This document shows, piece by piece, positions 12,102 through 64,000 of a DNA stretch of 64,000 bases. A program made the position numbers and the translations under genes. Source of the stretch: an uncultured bacterium. Lineage in GTDB: Bacteria > Verrucomicrobiota > Kiritimatiellia > CAIKKV01 > CAITUY01. The notes under the pieces were generated by a model that did no database searches, was not told where the DNA came from, and saw only the letters and a list, made by a program, of their open reading frames with translations. The stretch is taken from assembly GCA_903895695.1 (NCBI GenBank), contig CAITUY010000001.1:1-64000 (forward strand), read 5' to 3'. Each line of letters begins with the position of its first letter. Position 1 is the first letter of the stretch.

Positions 12102-12593
12102 ATGAAAAAAGTATTGAGCATCGGAGTTGTGTTTCTGTCTCTCGCCGCCTGCGTGTGGGCGCAGGATCGCCTGGTTACTATCTCGGCCGGCAAAACGCCT
12201 GCGCTGGAGCTTGCCGTGCCGGCGGCGGCCAAGGTGACGCAGGAGAAGGATAAGACCGTGATCCAGACGACCAACATGTTCCTGTACGTGTGGGCGGTGG
12301 CGGACGCGAAGAACGTTGACGACGCACAGGTGCGGCTGGCCGATACAATCAAGGGCGACGTCCTGAAGTTTGCGGCCTCCACGACCAACGCGATCACAGT
12401 AGCCGGCGCGTTGGCCCGGCATCTGATCGGAAAATGCGTCGAAGCCGACGACGGCGATCCCGCCACGGCCGATATCGTGCTCTTTGTCGCCGGTCCTCAT
12501 GTCTTCGTCGCCTGCGTGCACGGGGAGGGGAACGATGCCTCGCGGGAGCGCGAACCGATGCTGAAGGTCCTGCGGACCGCAAAGAGCCCGTAA
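12102..12593 (+). CDS. Small exported protein, unknown function
   Basis: The 163-residue product has a clear signal peptide (MKKVLSIGVVFLSLAACVWA, cleavage after ~20). The mature part is soluble, with a central ADTIKGDVLKFAAS segment and a strand-rich DIVLFVAGPHVFVACVHGEG near the C-terminus. The phrase LAAC could be read as a lipobox, but the residues after Cys and the following VWAQ favour ordinary cleavage. It follows the beta-rich exported protein by 23 bases. No family is recognised, so only export is supported. Confidence 0.6.
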   Translation: MKKVLSIGVVFLSLAACVWAQDRLVTISAGKTPALELAVPAAAKVTQEKDKTVIQTTNMFLYVWAVADAKNVDDAQVRLADTIKGDVLKFAASTTNAITVAGALARHLIGKCVEADDGDPATADIVLFVAGPHVFVACVHGEGNDASREREPMLKVLRTAKSP

Positions 12594-12623
12594 AACCAGC
12601 GCGCGGGCAAGTGACGCGCAAGG

Positions 12624-12646
12624 GCACTGCTCGTTAAGGGCAGTGC
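12624..12646. terminator. Weak hairpin between convergent genes
   Basis: GCACTGC and GCAGTGC form a 7-bp stem with a 9-base loop between two converging genes. No T-run follows on either strand, so it is only a possible bidirectional or Rho-assisted stop. Confidence 0.35.
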
Positions 12647-12670
12647 TTGGTGTGACGAACGCCTGCTTTT

Positions 12671-13774
12671 CTAGTCGAAGCGCTGTACGACGGCGTTGGT
12701 TCGGATGGATGCGTAGATTTCCGCTTCCTTGCGGTTCAGATACTCCGTCCGCAGGATATCCACGACGTTCGCTTCCGTCAGGCGCTGGCATCGGATCACG
12801 TGGAAGCCCCAGGGCGACTCGACCGGCGGCGTGGCGTCGCCGAGCTTTGCGGCCTCGCAGGCGTTTTGAACGTCCCTCCCGAACGTGTCTTTGGGGATAC
12901 ATCCCAGGCTGCCGCCTTTCGATCGGGTCGTGAAGTCCTCCGAAGTATTCTCGGCCAGTTTCGCGAAATCATCGCCCTTTTGCAGCCGTTGCCAGACGTC
13001 CATGGCTTTTCCCTTGGCTTTTTCTCGGACCGCATCGGGATACTCCGCGAAGTCGGGCTGCTGCGCTGTCTTGAAGAAAATGTGCGACATCTTTGTGTAA
13101 GTTTGCTCGACACGCGAACGTTCATTGGCCGCCAGTTTGCCGCGTTCCGCTCCCGGGGGAAATTCGGCGTTCCATAGCGCGTCCACGTGTTTGGTCATGC
13201 CAAGGTCGTTCCGCACGATGTTTCGCAGATCGCTGAGGCACATTGAATTGGCGGCCATGAATCCGTCGAGCGACTTGTAGGTGCAACAGGGGCACCCGCC
13301 CGACGAAGGAGGGTTCTTGCGCAAATCCGCGACCTTCTGATCAACGGCGGTATCGGTCACGCTGACGCCTTGTTTCGCCAGATACTGACGGACCGCAAGT
13401 GACGAGATCAAGTGATCCAGCCGCGTCTGGCGGACATCCTCAAGCATGGAGCCGATCAGATCCCGACCGATCCCGGCGTCGACATCCTCGCGGGAGATGG
13501 TTTCCCCGTTAACCGTCGCGGCCGCGCCGTGCCGCGGTCGCGACTCCACGGGCTTCGGCTTGGGTGCCGGGGCCTGCGGAACGACAGATACCTGTGCCGG
13601 CGTGCCGGTAGTTATGGGCGTGAAGCTGGCCGGCGTCCAGGCCACAGGTGAGGTGGCGGCGCCCGACTGCCCGGCTTGCTCGGGCCGCAGCCAGCCTGTC
13701 CACCAGATAAACCCCCACACCACCAGAGGCGCGCCAACAATGATGGCGAGAAACCTGAGAAGATCTTTGATCAT
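12671..13774 (-). CDS. Membrane-anchored parvulin-type peptidyl-prolyl isomerase (SurA/PrsA-like)
   Basis: The 367-residue protein has an N-terminal membrane anchor (residues 8-28), a Pro-rich linker, a SurA-like N-domain beginning VNGETISREDVD, and a parvulin domain starting at YTKMSHIFFK (about residue 226), with SKGGSLGCIPKD and SPWGFHVIRCQ. A CPCC cluster at residues 161-164 and other Cys are unusual for a parvulin and suggest thiol or metal contact. It assists folding of exported proteins. It starts inside the stop of the upstream DUF3299-like gene (4-base overlap) and is the last gene of the long zinc-type operon. Confidence 0.88.
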   Translation of the reverse strand: MIKDLLRFLAIIVGAPLVVWGFIWWTGWLRPEQAGQSGAATSPVAWTPASFTPITTGTPAQVSVVPQAPAPKPKPVESRPRHGAAATVNGETISREDVDAGIGRDLIGSMLEDVRQTRLDHLISSLAVRQYLAKQGVSVTDTAVDQKVADLRKNPPSSGGCPCCTYKSLDGFMAANSMCLSDLRNIVRNDLGMTKHVDALWNAEFPPGAERGKLAANERSRVEQTYTKMSHIFFKTAQQPDFAEYPDAVREKAKGKAMDVWQRLQKGDDFAKLAENTSEDFTTRSKGGSLGCIPKDTFGRDVQNACEAAKLGDATPPVESPWGFHVIRCQRLTEANVVDILRTEYLNRKEAEIYASIRTNAVVQRFD

Positions 13775-61130: not shown

Positions 61131-61379
61131 TCACCAATTCGGCGGCGCCAGGGCGCGCATCGCCACGTAGATCAAGGCGAAGACGGCCGTTGCGGCGTAA
61201 ATGAGAATCATGAACCACGGCATGCGCCGTGTTTCCGGCGCGGGCTGGGCGGGAGCCGCGGTGCGGTTCCCGGCGCCCCAGGTTTCAACGCAGACCAGGA
61301 CGATGGCCAGCACAAGCACGACACCGCCGGCCAGTGCCAGGGCGAGCCATTGGTTCTGGAAGATATCAAGGCGCATCAT
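61131..61379 (-). CDS. Small two-helix membrane protein of the cbb3 operon
   Basis: The 82-residue product starts at ATG 61379 with GGAG upstream. Two helices (WLALALAGGVVLVLAIVLVC and FMILIYAATAVFALIYVAM) are joined by an Ala/Pro-rich loop. It resembles CcoQ-like small subunits in size only. Its start overlaps the end of ccoS because an inverted repeat extended that gene. Confidence 0.65.
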   Translation of the reverse strand: MMRLDIFQNQWLALALAGGVVLVLAIVLVCVETWGAGNRTAAPAQPAPETRRMPWFMILIYAATAVFALIYVAMRALAPPNW

Positions 61380-61671
61380 GATGGACTCCGCGTGGCTTTC
61401 CACCACGAAGAACACGAAGGGCACGAACGTGCAGCGGAGCTTGGCGGCTCTTCGTGTTCTTCGTGGTGGATATCCCGATCGATGGAGGGCGCCGCTCCGT
61501 CGGCGCCGTGTCCGGCACGCCGCTGACCAGGGGCAGGCCGCGCGCCCGCTCCTGCTCGGAGAACTGGCCGGACCGAACGGCCCAGACCAGGATCGCCGAG
61601 ATGCCGATCACGGCCAGCACAGCGAAGGCGATCCACAGGTACAGCAGTTGCACGGACTCGGTCGGGTTCAT
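61366..61671 (-). CDS. ccoS: CcoS-type cbb3 oxidase maturation protein with a repeat-derived tail
   Basis: The 101-residue product starts at ATG 61671, overlapping the ccoO/P stop. WIAFAVLAVIGISAILVW is the single helix and AVRSGQFSE matches CcoS, which inserts copper and haem cofactors into the oxidase. CcoS proteins are usually ~50-70 residues. Residues ~68-91 are encoded by a 20-bp inverted repeat (STTKNTKSR and RALRVLRG), so the C-terminus is probably insertion-derived. Confidence 0.8.
   Translation of the reverse strand: MNPTESVQLLYLWIAFAVLAVIGISAILVWAVRSGQFSEQERARGLPLVSGVPDTAPTERRPPSIGISTTKNTKSRQAPLHVRALRVLRGGKPRGVHHDAP
61400..61469. repeat. Dispersed palindromic element with perfect 20-bp arms inside ccoS
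   Basis: CCACCACGAAGAACACGAAG and its exact reverse complement flank a 30-base loop. It lies in the 3' coding part of ccoS and supplies its last codons. Similar 'CACGAAGAACACGAAG' repeats are known to me from PVC genomes. Confidence 0.88.
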
Positions 61672-62660
61672 GGACGGACTCCTTTCGGCGCCAGGGACTG
61701 GAACGCGTTCGACCACGCCGGCTCGTAAGCCGCCTCGATCCCGCGCGGCGCCGTGCCGGCATCGGTGTAACCCAGGAAGCGGACCGCCATGAAGTTGGAT
61801 ACGTCCCAGATCTTTTCCGACTCCAGTTCATGTTTGAAGTAGGGCATGGCGGTGCCGGTGATGCCGTTCATGATCTGGTAGTAGAAGAGGCCTCCGACGT
61901 ACCGGCCCTGGGCAAGGTGGCGCTTGAGCGTCGTGAAATTGAGGGGCGGGGGCGAGAGGTATTTCTCCGCGACGCCTTGGCCATCGCCCACGGGCCCGTG
62001 GCAGTTCAGGCAGAAGCCCTCATAGATCTTCTGGCCCCGCTGCAAGGCGGCTTCCGTGGCGGGGTAGGGGTTGGGCATGGCCAGCCAGCCCGCCGGGACC
62101 TGGGCATGCAGCCAGTCAACGTTGACGTCCGGTCCGCCGGCATAGGCGCGGACGGCGGGTGCCTTCCAGCGTTGCTGGCGGGCCACACGGTAATCGGCAT
62201 CGCGGCTGCCCAGCGATTGCACGTAGGCGGTCAAGTTGGAAACGGCGGGCCAACCCAGGAATTCCCAGGATGGCATGAGCGAGAGCGGCCGCGTATAGCG
62301 CGGGTTGGTGAAGTGCGCCCAGTGCCAGTCGTCCGGGTGCTCGCCACCATCCTGCGACAGATCCGGTCCGGTCCGCTCGGTCCCCAGGATGGCGGGATTT
62401 TGTCCCGCGTAATCGCCTCGTTCGGCGATGCGGTCCGCGCCGAGGTCCCAGTCGGAGACGCGGACGTAGAGCGAGTGACAGTAACTGCAACCGTTCTTCA
62501 CGTACAGGTCGTGCCCGGCGGTTTCGGCAGACGTCCACGGACGCCAGGCGGTCGAGGGCGTTTCGGTCATCGTGATCGCCGGGAGGATGATGGCGACCAA
62601 GACAGAGGCCCAGAAGACGAGCAGGCTGCCGACCATGGCGAGGGCGGGGGTCATTTTCAT
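61668..62660 (-). CDS. ccoO: cbb3 oxidase cytochrome c subunit, CcoO with a CcoP-like second haem domain
   Basis: The 330-residue protein starts at ATG 62660 with AGGAGG upstream, overlapping the ccoN stop. An N-terminal helix (LVFWASVLVAIILPAI) precedes CSYCH (C58-H62) in NGCSYCHSLYVR, the CcoO/FixO haem motif, and a second CLNCH (C217-H221) as in CcoP. Axial Met candidates are LMPSWEFLG and AMPYFKHE. It receives electrons and passes them to CcoN. The fused or two-haem form replaces separate CcoO and CcoP. Confidence 0.9.
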   Translation of the reverse strand: MKMTPALAMVGSLLVFWASVLVAIILPAITMTETPSTAWRPWTSAETAGHDLYVKNGCSYCHSLYVRVSDWDLGADRIAERGDYAGQNPAILGTERTGPDLSQDGGEHPDDWHWAHFTNPRYTRPLSLMPSWEFLGWPAVSNLTAYVQSLGSRDADYRVARQQRWKAPAVRAYAGGPDVNVDWLHAQVPAGWLAMPNPYPATEAALQRGQKIYEGFCLNCHGPVGDGQGVAEKYLSPPPLNFTTLKRHLAQGRYVGGLFYYQIMNGITGTAMPYFKHELESEKIWDVSNFMAVRFLGYTDAGTAPRGIEAAYEPAWSNAFQSLAPKGVRP

Positions 62661-64000
62661 GGGGCGGCCTCCTGGTCCGGGACCGTCGCCGTGCACGACG
62701 ATTTTGGCGTCCCGCCACACGAGGTGGCGGGGACGCTGTTTGGCGCCGGGTGCAGTGAGGTCCCACACGAGGTGGCGGGGACGCTGCCTGGCGCCGGGCG
62801 TAGCGACATGATCGCAACGTAGAGGCCGATCGCGGAGGCGGCGAGGATGGACACCCCGAACATCGCGCGGAGCGCCATGTAGACGGCAATTTCGGGCAGC
62901 ACGCGGTAGACGGTCTCGCCGTTGTGCCAGGCTTCGCCCTGGATGAGCCCGGCCGCGGTCAGCACGGCGAAGAATCCCGCCAACCCGAAGGTCAGCAGCG
63001 CGAACTGCAGGTTCACGAGACGAGGCGAGTGCAGCGGGCGGCCGGTCACCAGGGGGAGGATGTGCCACAGGCCGCCGAGCGCGATCATCCCGGAGAACCC
63101 GAGCACCGCGATGTGGGCGTGGCCGATGGTCCAGTTCGTGAAGTGCGTGACCTTCTGGATACTCGGCAACGATTGGAGCGGCCCCTGAATGCACGTCACC
63201 AGGTACCAGGCCGTACCGGCCATGATGAAGCGGGCGGCCGGGTCACGCCAGAGGCGGGCGCCATGGCCCCGCGCGGTCAGCCACACGTTGACCAGCACGG
63301 TGAACACGGGCACGATCATGGCCACCGAGTCCACAACGGAAATCGTCTTCAGCCAGTTCGGGATGGGAGCTTGAAGGATGTGGTGGCCGCCAATGTGGGC
63401 GTACATCGAGACGAGCGTCCAGAATCCGATCAGCGAGAGCGTATGCGAATAGAGCGGCGTCCGGGCCACGCGCGGGACGACGTAATACACGACTGCGATG
63501 GAGAGGGGCGTGAGAAGCATGCCCACCAGATTGTGCCCGTAGAACCAGAGGAACACCGAGTCCAGCAGGCCAGGCAGCGCACCCGTCAGGGGATGCCACA
63601 TGACGTTGCCGATCGGGTAGTTGGCGGCCGACCACAGGCAGGCCCCAAGCGCGTACCACACCGACACGTAAAGGACGTTCTCGATGCGGGTGGCCACGGT
63701 CATCGTGAAGTTAACGATCATGGCCAGCATGGCCACCACGAGCGAGACGTCAAAGATCCACAGGTATTCGGCATATTCGCGGCCCTGGGTGAACCCGAAC
63801 GGGAACGTGAAGAAGCCGCTGAGAACGGTCAGGTTCCAGGAGAACCACGACACCCACCCGAGGCGCTCGGACCACAAGGGAGTGCGCAGCAAGGCCGGGA
63901 CGTAGTAATACGCGCACCCGATCAACGTGCTGGCTGTGAAGCCGAAGATGACCGTGTTGACGTGCACGGGCCGCGTCCGGCCGAACACCAGGAAAGGGAC
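62657..64000 (-). CDS. ccoN: cbb3 cytochrome c oxidase catalytic subunit CcoN (N-terminus beyond window)
   Basis: The frame is open to the end of the window, so the N-terminus is missing. Visible parts include YGHNLVGMLLTPLSIAVVYY, MYAHIGGHHILQAP (CuB His pair), and THFTNWTIGHAHIAVLGF (haem His ligands), all hallmarks of CcoN. It reduces O2 at a high-affinity haem b3-CuB site. The C-terminal ~35 residues (GSVPATSCG twice) come from tandem copies of a dispersed hairpin, so the tail is probably insertion-derived. Confidence 0.93.
   Translation of the reverse strand, partial: VPFLVFGRTRPVHVNTVIFGFTASTLIGCAYYYVPALLRTPLWSERLGWVSWFSWNLTVLSGFFTFPFGFTQGREYAEYLWIFDVSLVVAMLAMIVNFTMTVATRIENVLYVSVWYALGACLWSAANYPIGNVMWHPLTGALPGLLDSVFLWFYGHNLVGMLLTPLSIAVVYYVVPRVARTPLYSHTLSLIGFWTLVSMYAHIGGHHILQAPIPNWLKTISVVDSVAMIVPVFTVLVNVWLTARGHGARLWRDPAARFIMAGTAWYLVTCIQGPLQSLPSIQKVTHFTNWTIGHAHIAVLGFSGMIALGGLWHILPLVTGRPLHSPRLVNLQFALLTFGLAGFFAVLTAAGLIQGEAWHNGETVYRVLPEIAVYMALRAMFGVSILAASAIGLYVAIMSLRPAPGSVPATSCGTSLHPAPNSVPATSCGGTPKSSCTATVPDQEAAP
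62707..62812. repeat. Tandem copies of the dispersed 30-base hairpin in the ccoN 3' end
   Basis: The first copy, 62707-62736, is the reverse complement of 10846-10875 apart from a compensating base pair and an arm-length difference. A second, partial copy (ACACGAGGTGGCGGGGACGC) follows about 50 bases later with a shared flank GGCGCCGGG. Both are translated in the ccoN frame. Confidence 0.8.

Follow-up and report, generated by a model that had tools for sequence, protein, structure and literature searches.

An inverted repeat read into the end of ccoS is probably a gene-less copy of a small GxxExxY-type mobile element

How did the ccoS gene of an uncultured Kiritimatiellia bacterium come to end inside a perfect inverted repeat, and what is this repeat? 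The gene lies in the window, that is, the whole stretch of 64,000 nucleotides that was analysed (Table 1). On the minus strand it runs from an ATG at 61671 through both arms of the repeat to a TGA at 61366-61368, overlapping by 14 bases the next open reading frame (ORF), whose ATG is at 61379. A preliminary description had pointed out this overlap, together with a perfect 20-bp inverted repeat and about 35 residues beyond the usual CcoS end, and all three are present, the arms being perfect over 21 bp and the tail comprising 27 element-derived residues plus a further 9. What that description missed is the identity of the element. Taken as a whole, the repeat is probably best explained as a MITE-like copy, lacking the gene, of a small mobile element of GxxExxY type, which is apparently widespread and undescribed.

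Table 1. Positions of the features at the 3' end of ccoS, numbered along the window
Feature	Position	Strand
ccoS (FixS), 101 aa including the read-through tail	61366..61671	-
Extra C-terminal CcoS tail, 27 element-derived residues plus 9 further ones	61369..61475	-
Next ORF (82 aa), by eye membrane-like, no family match above cut-off	61131..61379	-
Palindromic element without a gene, extended arms and loop	61394..61475	no strand
Left arm TCCACCACGAAGAACACGAAG, built of 9-bp words CACGAAGNN	61399..61419	+
Loop; its left end holds an imperfect third word (GGCACGAACG)	61420..61449	no strand
Right arm, exact reverse complement of the left arm	61450..61470	-

The protein scores 28.5 bits with the Pfam FixS model (cut-off 23.1) and 16 bits with the NCBIfam ccoS model, under that model's own cut-off of 28.35. 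A conserved tail in distant relatives, set beforehand as the observation that would count against an insertion, was not found: among 30 loci from a search of the phylum, own locus included, a motif search scored 18 and missed 12, and the 17 other scored CcoS proteins have 19-31 residues after the GQF motif, against 61 in the window protein. The extra tail is thus not conserved among the scored proteins. The range of 19-31 residues is what could make the long tail pass for ordinary C-terminal variation, with an inverted repeat unrelated to any mobile element, but this reading is scarcely credible, as the tail is itself the element and a GT4 glycosyltransferase of the same genome (C42, L004:1483-3015) has a C-terminus, GSTTKVTKNTKQSGDA, that lies inside another copy, its end peptide STTKVTKNTK sharing an identical word frame with the CcoS tail ISTTKNTK. 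Since Pfam matched none of six other ORFs that end in palindromes in other genomes, no wider count of extended proteins is claimed.

The read-through of about 36 extra residues is possible because the words have a length of 9 bp and hardly any stops: the word CACGAAGNN is without stops in five of six frames, the sixth having one for just 4 of 16 spacers, and in the window element all six frames are open. With a unit of 9 bp the frame is therefore kept through the element, and there is no need to assume selection for the tail. The maturation operon had also been called essential, for which its patchy distribution gives no support, the CcoO-P protein of the cluster being unmatched in 8/8 other genomes of the same family and 8/8 of the same order; for this reason, no orthologous empty site can be read at ccoS. 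Elsewhere in the window, a pair of 44-nt direct repeats at 62715-62806, with 89% likeness and a spacing of 48, lies close to the 3' end of a ccoN-like reading frame (62657-64000, minus strand) and is unrelated to the CACGAAG words.

The two perfect arms contain two perfect CACGAAGNN words each, with the imperfect third one on the left side, and a perfect 20-bp pair so close together has a chance expectation of about 3e-6 (64000 x 50 spacings x 4^-20). Extended to 61394-61422 and 61447-61475, the arms are 29 nt long and 90% complementary. The RNA fold of the palindrome reaches -53.8 kcal/mol, against -35.4 for shuffles (z -5.3). The best match to an Rfam microRNA model, mir-6536 at 61395-61474, scores 39.6 bits with a gathering cut-off of 100; such matches, all far under their gathering cut-offs, were taken as a generic likeness to long hairpins. 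With terminal inverted repeats and no gene of its own, the palindrome resembles a MITE in this respect.

Counting copies in the genome had been proposed as a check on the insertion, and the element is indeed dispersed. In the own genome the 16-mer CACGAAGAACACGAAG has 8 exact copies, and CACGAAGNNCACGAAG has 15 exact matches against 0 for a reversed control, or 53 against 4 when up to one mismatch is allowed. By eye there are about 18 places with CACGAAGNN words, namely 6 paired copies (C1, C42, C83, C135, C190, and C248) and 12 solo arms, while 14 additional single matches with one mismatch look fortuitous; an ORF of at least 90 aa overlaps 13 of these. The arm match score is 21 in the window copy and 9-15 in the remaining five pairs. 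Of the preliminary reading as a recent insertion, the dispersed element and the read-through tail are borne out, but not the recency; the best-matched arms fit a young insertion and do not prove its youth.

Outside the own genome, the palindrome was found in at least 116 stretches of named genomes, the record titles among the matches listed including Deltaproteobacteria, Acidobacteria, Planctomycetota, Verrucomicrobia, Chloroflexi, Nitrospinota, Leptospiraceae, and gammaproteobacterial genera. The copies are mostly intergenic: ORFs contain 27 of the 121 unique palindromes, compared with 2130 of 2420 random positions. Beyond CTTCGTGG the consensus continues with a T (84%) and a weak [T/G]AA and nothing further, so that the ends read approximately TTYACC..GGTRAA; the window ends TCCACC..GGTGGA differ from TTCACC..GGTGAA by one mismatch each. 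In searches of phage DNA no relatives of the window element were found, and plasmid DNA gave a single weak match of 32 bp. A search of the open literature with the arm words and the read-through peptides returned no description of the element; a match to another word is a PCR primer upstream of a Bacteroides fragilis gene (PMC3090145).

Could the palindrome be a selected host element, such as an RNA hairpin, an attenuator or a protein-binding site at the junction of ccoS and the next gene? The stable hairpin would suit such a role, as would a plausible ribosome-binding GGAG just outside the arm (by eye) and the covariation of the arms across many genomes, where the spacer dinucleotides of the two arms covary in 42 of 121 palindromes against 16.8 expected (top of 2000 shuffles, 30). 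However, the copies adjoin unrelated genes, a scan found no terminator-like site on the ccoS strand, and the distribution within one genus of 17 genomes is patchy, with 56, 14, 9, 1, and 1 arms in five genomes and zero in 12, which together make a regulatory element quite improbable. In the same genus, a 0.7-kb intergenic mosaic with such words adjoins an inverted segment, and in two relatives the flanking gene blocks abut within 2 bp. The genome with 56 arms (G025) holds two intergenic mosaics of mixed words (CTTCGTG, AATCTGCG, and AATCAGCC) at L275:7914-8648 and 12380-13145, and between them lies a 3.7-kb gene block whose orientation is the reverse of that in two congeners, which suggests recombination between the mosaics. 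In another genome (G222), the word arms at four loci (L285, L293, L301, and L305) are preceded by a hairpin of their own (e.g. TTTTTCATCTCCG..CGGAGATGGAAAA), which is a further architecture of word repeats.

Dispersed palindromes need a mobiliser, and the Y1 transposase domain (Y1_Tnp) was tested first, because REP-like repeats are tied to Y1 genes (PMC3733652). According to this reading, the palindrome would be of REP or TIR type and moved by a Y1 tyrosine transposase (IS200, RAYT or TIRYT); the anatomy is similar, with short dispersed palindromes as singles and pairs, and Y1_Tnp is present in 22 of 25 element-bearing genomes. Nevertheless, three genomes rich in arms, G025 (56 arms), G184 (14), and G251 (19), have no Y1_Tnp match, and word pairs lie near Y1 at only 3 of 74 loci by either of two measures (L240 and L261 with 13 of 14 letters, L206 and L240 with generalised words), some of the 74 ending early at contig ends, and never flank the gene on both sides. 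The five Y1 loci of the own genome have no word pairs. As to the GTAG tag of the REP/RAYT system, some solo arms of the own genome read GTAG, and the family consensus at this place is T and the weak [T/G]AA. With arm-rich genomes that lack Y1 and no Y1 gene between word pairs at the 74 loci, the Y1 transposase was rejected as the mobiliser, and this explanation is highly improbable. One Y1-type transposase of the own genome (C81, L033:1390-2022) sits amid a different tandem word repeat, read as ILNVEDILNVGGALRAP.

Other candidates were also looked for. A search for reverse transcriptases (PF00078) in 17 genomes from the genus to which the 56-arm genome belongs found none. Among clusters of ORFs near the palindromes of named genomes, neither a transposase nor a GxxExxY cluster is prominent; the largest cluster, 12 ORFs from 8 loci, is ABC-transporter-like by eye, and the others are small and housekeeping-like. 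The ORFs between distant arm pairs of G222, G025, G215, and G291 are mostly host-like by eye. It was inspection between the arm pairs of arm-rich genomes that brought GxxExxY genes to notice: all 3 such genes in the loci examined lie between inverted arms, in loci that had been chosen for their arms, and the protein of one of them (L364) matches both PF13366 and TIGR04256. These models name only a PD-(D/E)XK superfamily protein of unknown function. In 109 aligned GxxExxY proteins, the catalytic residues D (100%) and E (95%) and K (100%) of an E-x-K arrangement are conserved, as is Q (97%); there is a weak match to Cas4 nuclease profiles, and a profile of 9 GxxExxY sequences found no solved structure at E<=1.

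A PF13366 profile search of the phylum found GxxExxY in 164 of 288 sampled genomes, and 450 bp on either side of the genes were scored for ungapped inverted repeats that span the gene. The loci were a non-random sample: 30 came straight from the search, each being the one with the best E-value in its genome, 20 belonged to arm-rich genomes (two own-genome loci among them), 20 were next in rank, and the rest were further loci of 19 arm-rich genomes. The score is at least 15 at 83 of the 109 unique loci and at least 13 at 94, leaving 26 below 15. By comparison, with control loci under 3000 bases excluded, FixS loci reached 15 in 0/29 and 13 in none, CcoO/cytochrome loci in 0/25 and 1, so these non-mobile genes together gave 0/54 at 15 or more; letter-shuffled flanks gave 0/70 and 1, and Y1 transposases, the positive control, 11/21 at 15 or more.

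The inverted repeats at the 83 loci are mostly tandem words, like the window arms. In 72 of them the best repeat period falls between 8 and 10 bp (9 in 38, 8 in 19, and 10 in 15). When the shift is held strictly constant, tandem identity reaches 60% in 37 of the 83 and in 17 of 830 random stretches; some of the repeats, for example those at L397, L403, L437, L458, and L469, cannot plainly be read as tandem words. The palindrome's polarity is shared by 75 of the repeats and reversed in 2, with 6 unclear. The words vary among elements, some examples being CACAGAG, CACGGAG, CACGAAG, CACGAAA, CACGAAT, CGCAGAT, CGCCAAG, CGCAAAG, and ACAGGAT. Protein identity correlates with end similarity (Mantel r 0.346, 0 of 2000 permutations), also when pairs from different families alone are compared (r 0.320, 0 of 2000), which speaks for ends that are recognised by the protein or, alternatively, for strict co-inheritance of the two sequences. 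No clear excess of flanking direct repeats that would mark a target-site duplication was seen around the 83 gene-bearing units, whose ends are approximate, or around the palindromes.

How closely is the window palindrome tied to these genes? With genome size and kinship uncontrolled, GxxExxY is present in 35/35 genomes with at least three exact CACGAAG arms against 129/253 others (p 7e-10), and in 63/79 genomes with at least one arm against 101/209 others. Loci of CACGAAG type are L459 (G317), L364, L366, L184, L407, and L414. The gene at L459 is the sole GxxExxY gene of its genome and is flanked by exact arms, and genes with window-type words in the same genome were found in G317, G222, G251, and G261. 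Neither of the two GxxExxY genes of the 56-arm genome (L458 and L473) lies beside CACGAAG pairs. The three of the own assembly end in CACAGAG-like words (score 12), CGCCAAG/CGCAAAG (18), and CGCGGAT-like words (19), none of them in CACGAAG, and because they have these other ends, the palindrome is read as a gene-less relative that would work like a member and is not filed as a proven one. That it belongs to the set of word-ended elements linked to GxxExxY nevertheless has a good deal in its favour and is held with some confidence. As the assembly (94.6% complete) has no CACGAAG-ended GxxExxY gene, the source of the window copy may have been lost, may be unassembled, or may be a nuclease of broader taste.

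Whole units were also found at sites that are empty in relatives. In Sphingomonas parapaucimobilis, 438 bp with GxxExxY and inverted words lie between fabD and fabG, which in Sinorhizobium meliloti are 24 bp apart with no arms; in S. paeninsulae, fabD is directly followed by fabG-like DNA (unannotated there), again with no arms. A Bacteroides finegoldii record has a 472-bp GxxExxY unit, with the ends TTCACCACAGAGG..CCTCTGTGGTGAA, between radA and the gene of a FAD-dependent protein, and the same site holds 13 bp in Parabacteroides distasonis and about 0.8 kb of other DNA in Phocaeicola massiliensis. The end sequences agree with those of the CACGAAG palindromes. The records of named organisms that hold such units may be chromosome fragments filed as plasmids, which leaves the comparison unaffected. 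Plasmid-borne GxxExxY genes of named organisms scored at least 15 in 4 of 8 cases, a protein search with one query hit 8 of 72,556 plasmid records and 0 of 50,697 phage records, and the gene-bearing unit at L459 (600 bases) had no match in plasmid DNA.

These sites bear on another explanation, in which GxxExxY is a homing nuclease gene that enters the loops of existing palindromes, themselves moved by something else. The gene does occupy the loop position, and its protein is in the PD-(D/E)XK superfamily. In both comparisons, however, the arms are absent along with the gene, so the unit seems to have come whole, which argues against homing into a pre-existing palindrome; the correlation of protein and ends points the same way, although homing could also yield it. 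Homing is accordingly regarded as unlikely. At a Gemmatirosa locus, a gene-less palindrome adjoins a GxxExxY gene, and the best inverted pair there is of reversed polarity.

For the preferred reading, a palindrome that is the gene-less copy of a GxxExxY-type element, the following mechanism can be proposed. A full element would have the order TTCAC, two or three tandem words of 8-10 bp, a GxxExxY gene, the words inverted, and GTGAA, with the two measured lengths of 438 and 472 bp. The predicted PD-(D/E)XK nuclease would recognise the repeated end words and move word-bearing units, with or without the gene, mostly to intergenic DNA. One gene-less copy would have landed at the 3' end of ccoS, which would then have gained about 36 residues by reading through it. 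Judged from sequence comparison, the balance leans slightly towards GxxExxY proteins being the movers of word-ended elements; this role, the action in trans on palindromes, and the insertion at the ccoS site are all three things that we infer.

Some resemblances to known systems can be noted. MITEs are dispersed, have terminal inverted repeats and no coding capacity, and have a gene-bearing form with the same ends. The palindromes share the inverted ends, the missing gene and the dispersal, and they too have a gene-bearing form whose ends are of like kind, but no target-site duplication was seen, the loops have little in common beyond the arm words, solo arms are common, and the gene does not encode a known transposase. 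Rickettsia palindromic elements are read in frame inside protein genes, whereas here the reading is C-terminal, the copies are mostly intergenic and spread over many phyla, and a gene-bearing form exists. In the REP/REPIN-RAYT system, short palindromes are dispersed singly or in pairs, mostly between genes, with a nuclease gene elsewhere that is flanked by the repeats, and variants flanked by terminal inverted repeats (TIRtrons) are described (PMC3733652). Window-type repeats are likewise dispersed, single or paired and mostly intergenic, with the same words flanking a gene of a nuclease superfamily; however, no Y1/HUH transposase is linked to them, the linked gene belongs to the PD-(D/E)XK superfamily, and the ends are two or three tandem words of 8-10 bp. 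The TAACTGA repeats of Beggiatoaceae, intergenic 7-bp direct repeats with a suggested post-transcriptional regulatory role (PMC4679880), share the intergenic tandem short words, but the repeats here are inverted and have words of 8-10 bp. As for the GxxExxY family, the models TIGR04256 and PF13366 stop at the superfamily, while the gene is seen here between inverted words; in the accessible text of the open literature on GxxExxY, PDDEXK_3, TIGR04256 or PF13366, nothing on mobility was found.

GxxExxY genes may well stand at the heart of a class of very small mobile elements of the chromosome that has so far gone unrecognised, and the word palindromes would be its gene-less offspring. Such a class would be characterized by a length of about 0.45 kb, one predicted PD-(D/E)XK nuclease, ends of two or three tandem 8-10-bp words, and no target duplication, and would take in many families of short-word palindromes in environmental bacterial genomes, including the one at ccoS. 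With GxxExxY linked to repeat ends, a common family without a known function would gain a testable role, several dispersed families of word repeats could find a joint explanation, and the DDE, Y1, and tyrosine and serine recombinase kinds would be joined by a mini-element linked to PD-(D/E)XK. Stop-poor repeats are, moreover, a route to longer proteins, and if this account is true, word palindromes occasionally supply proteins with new C-termini.
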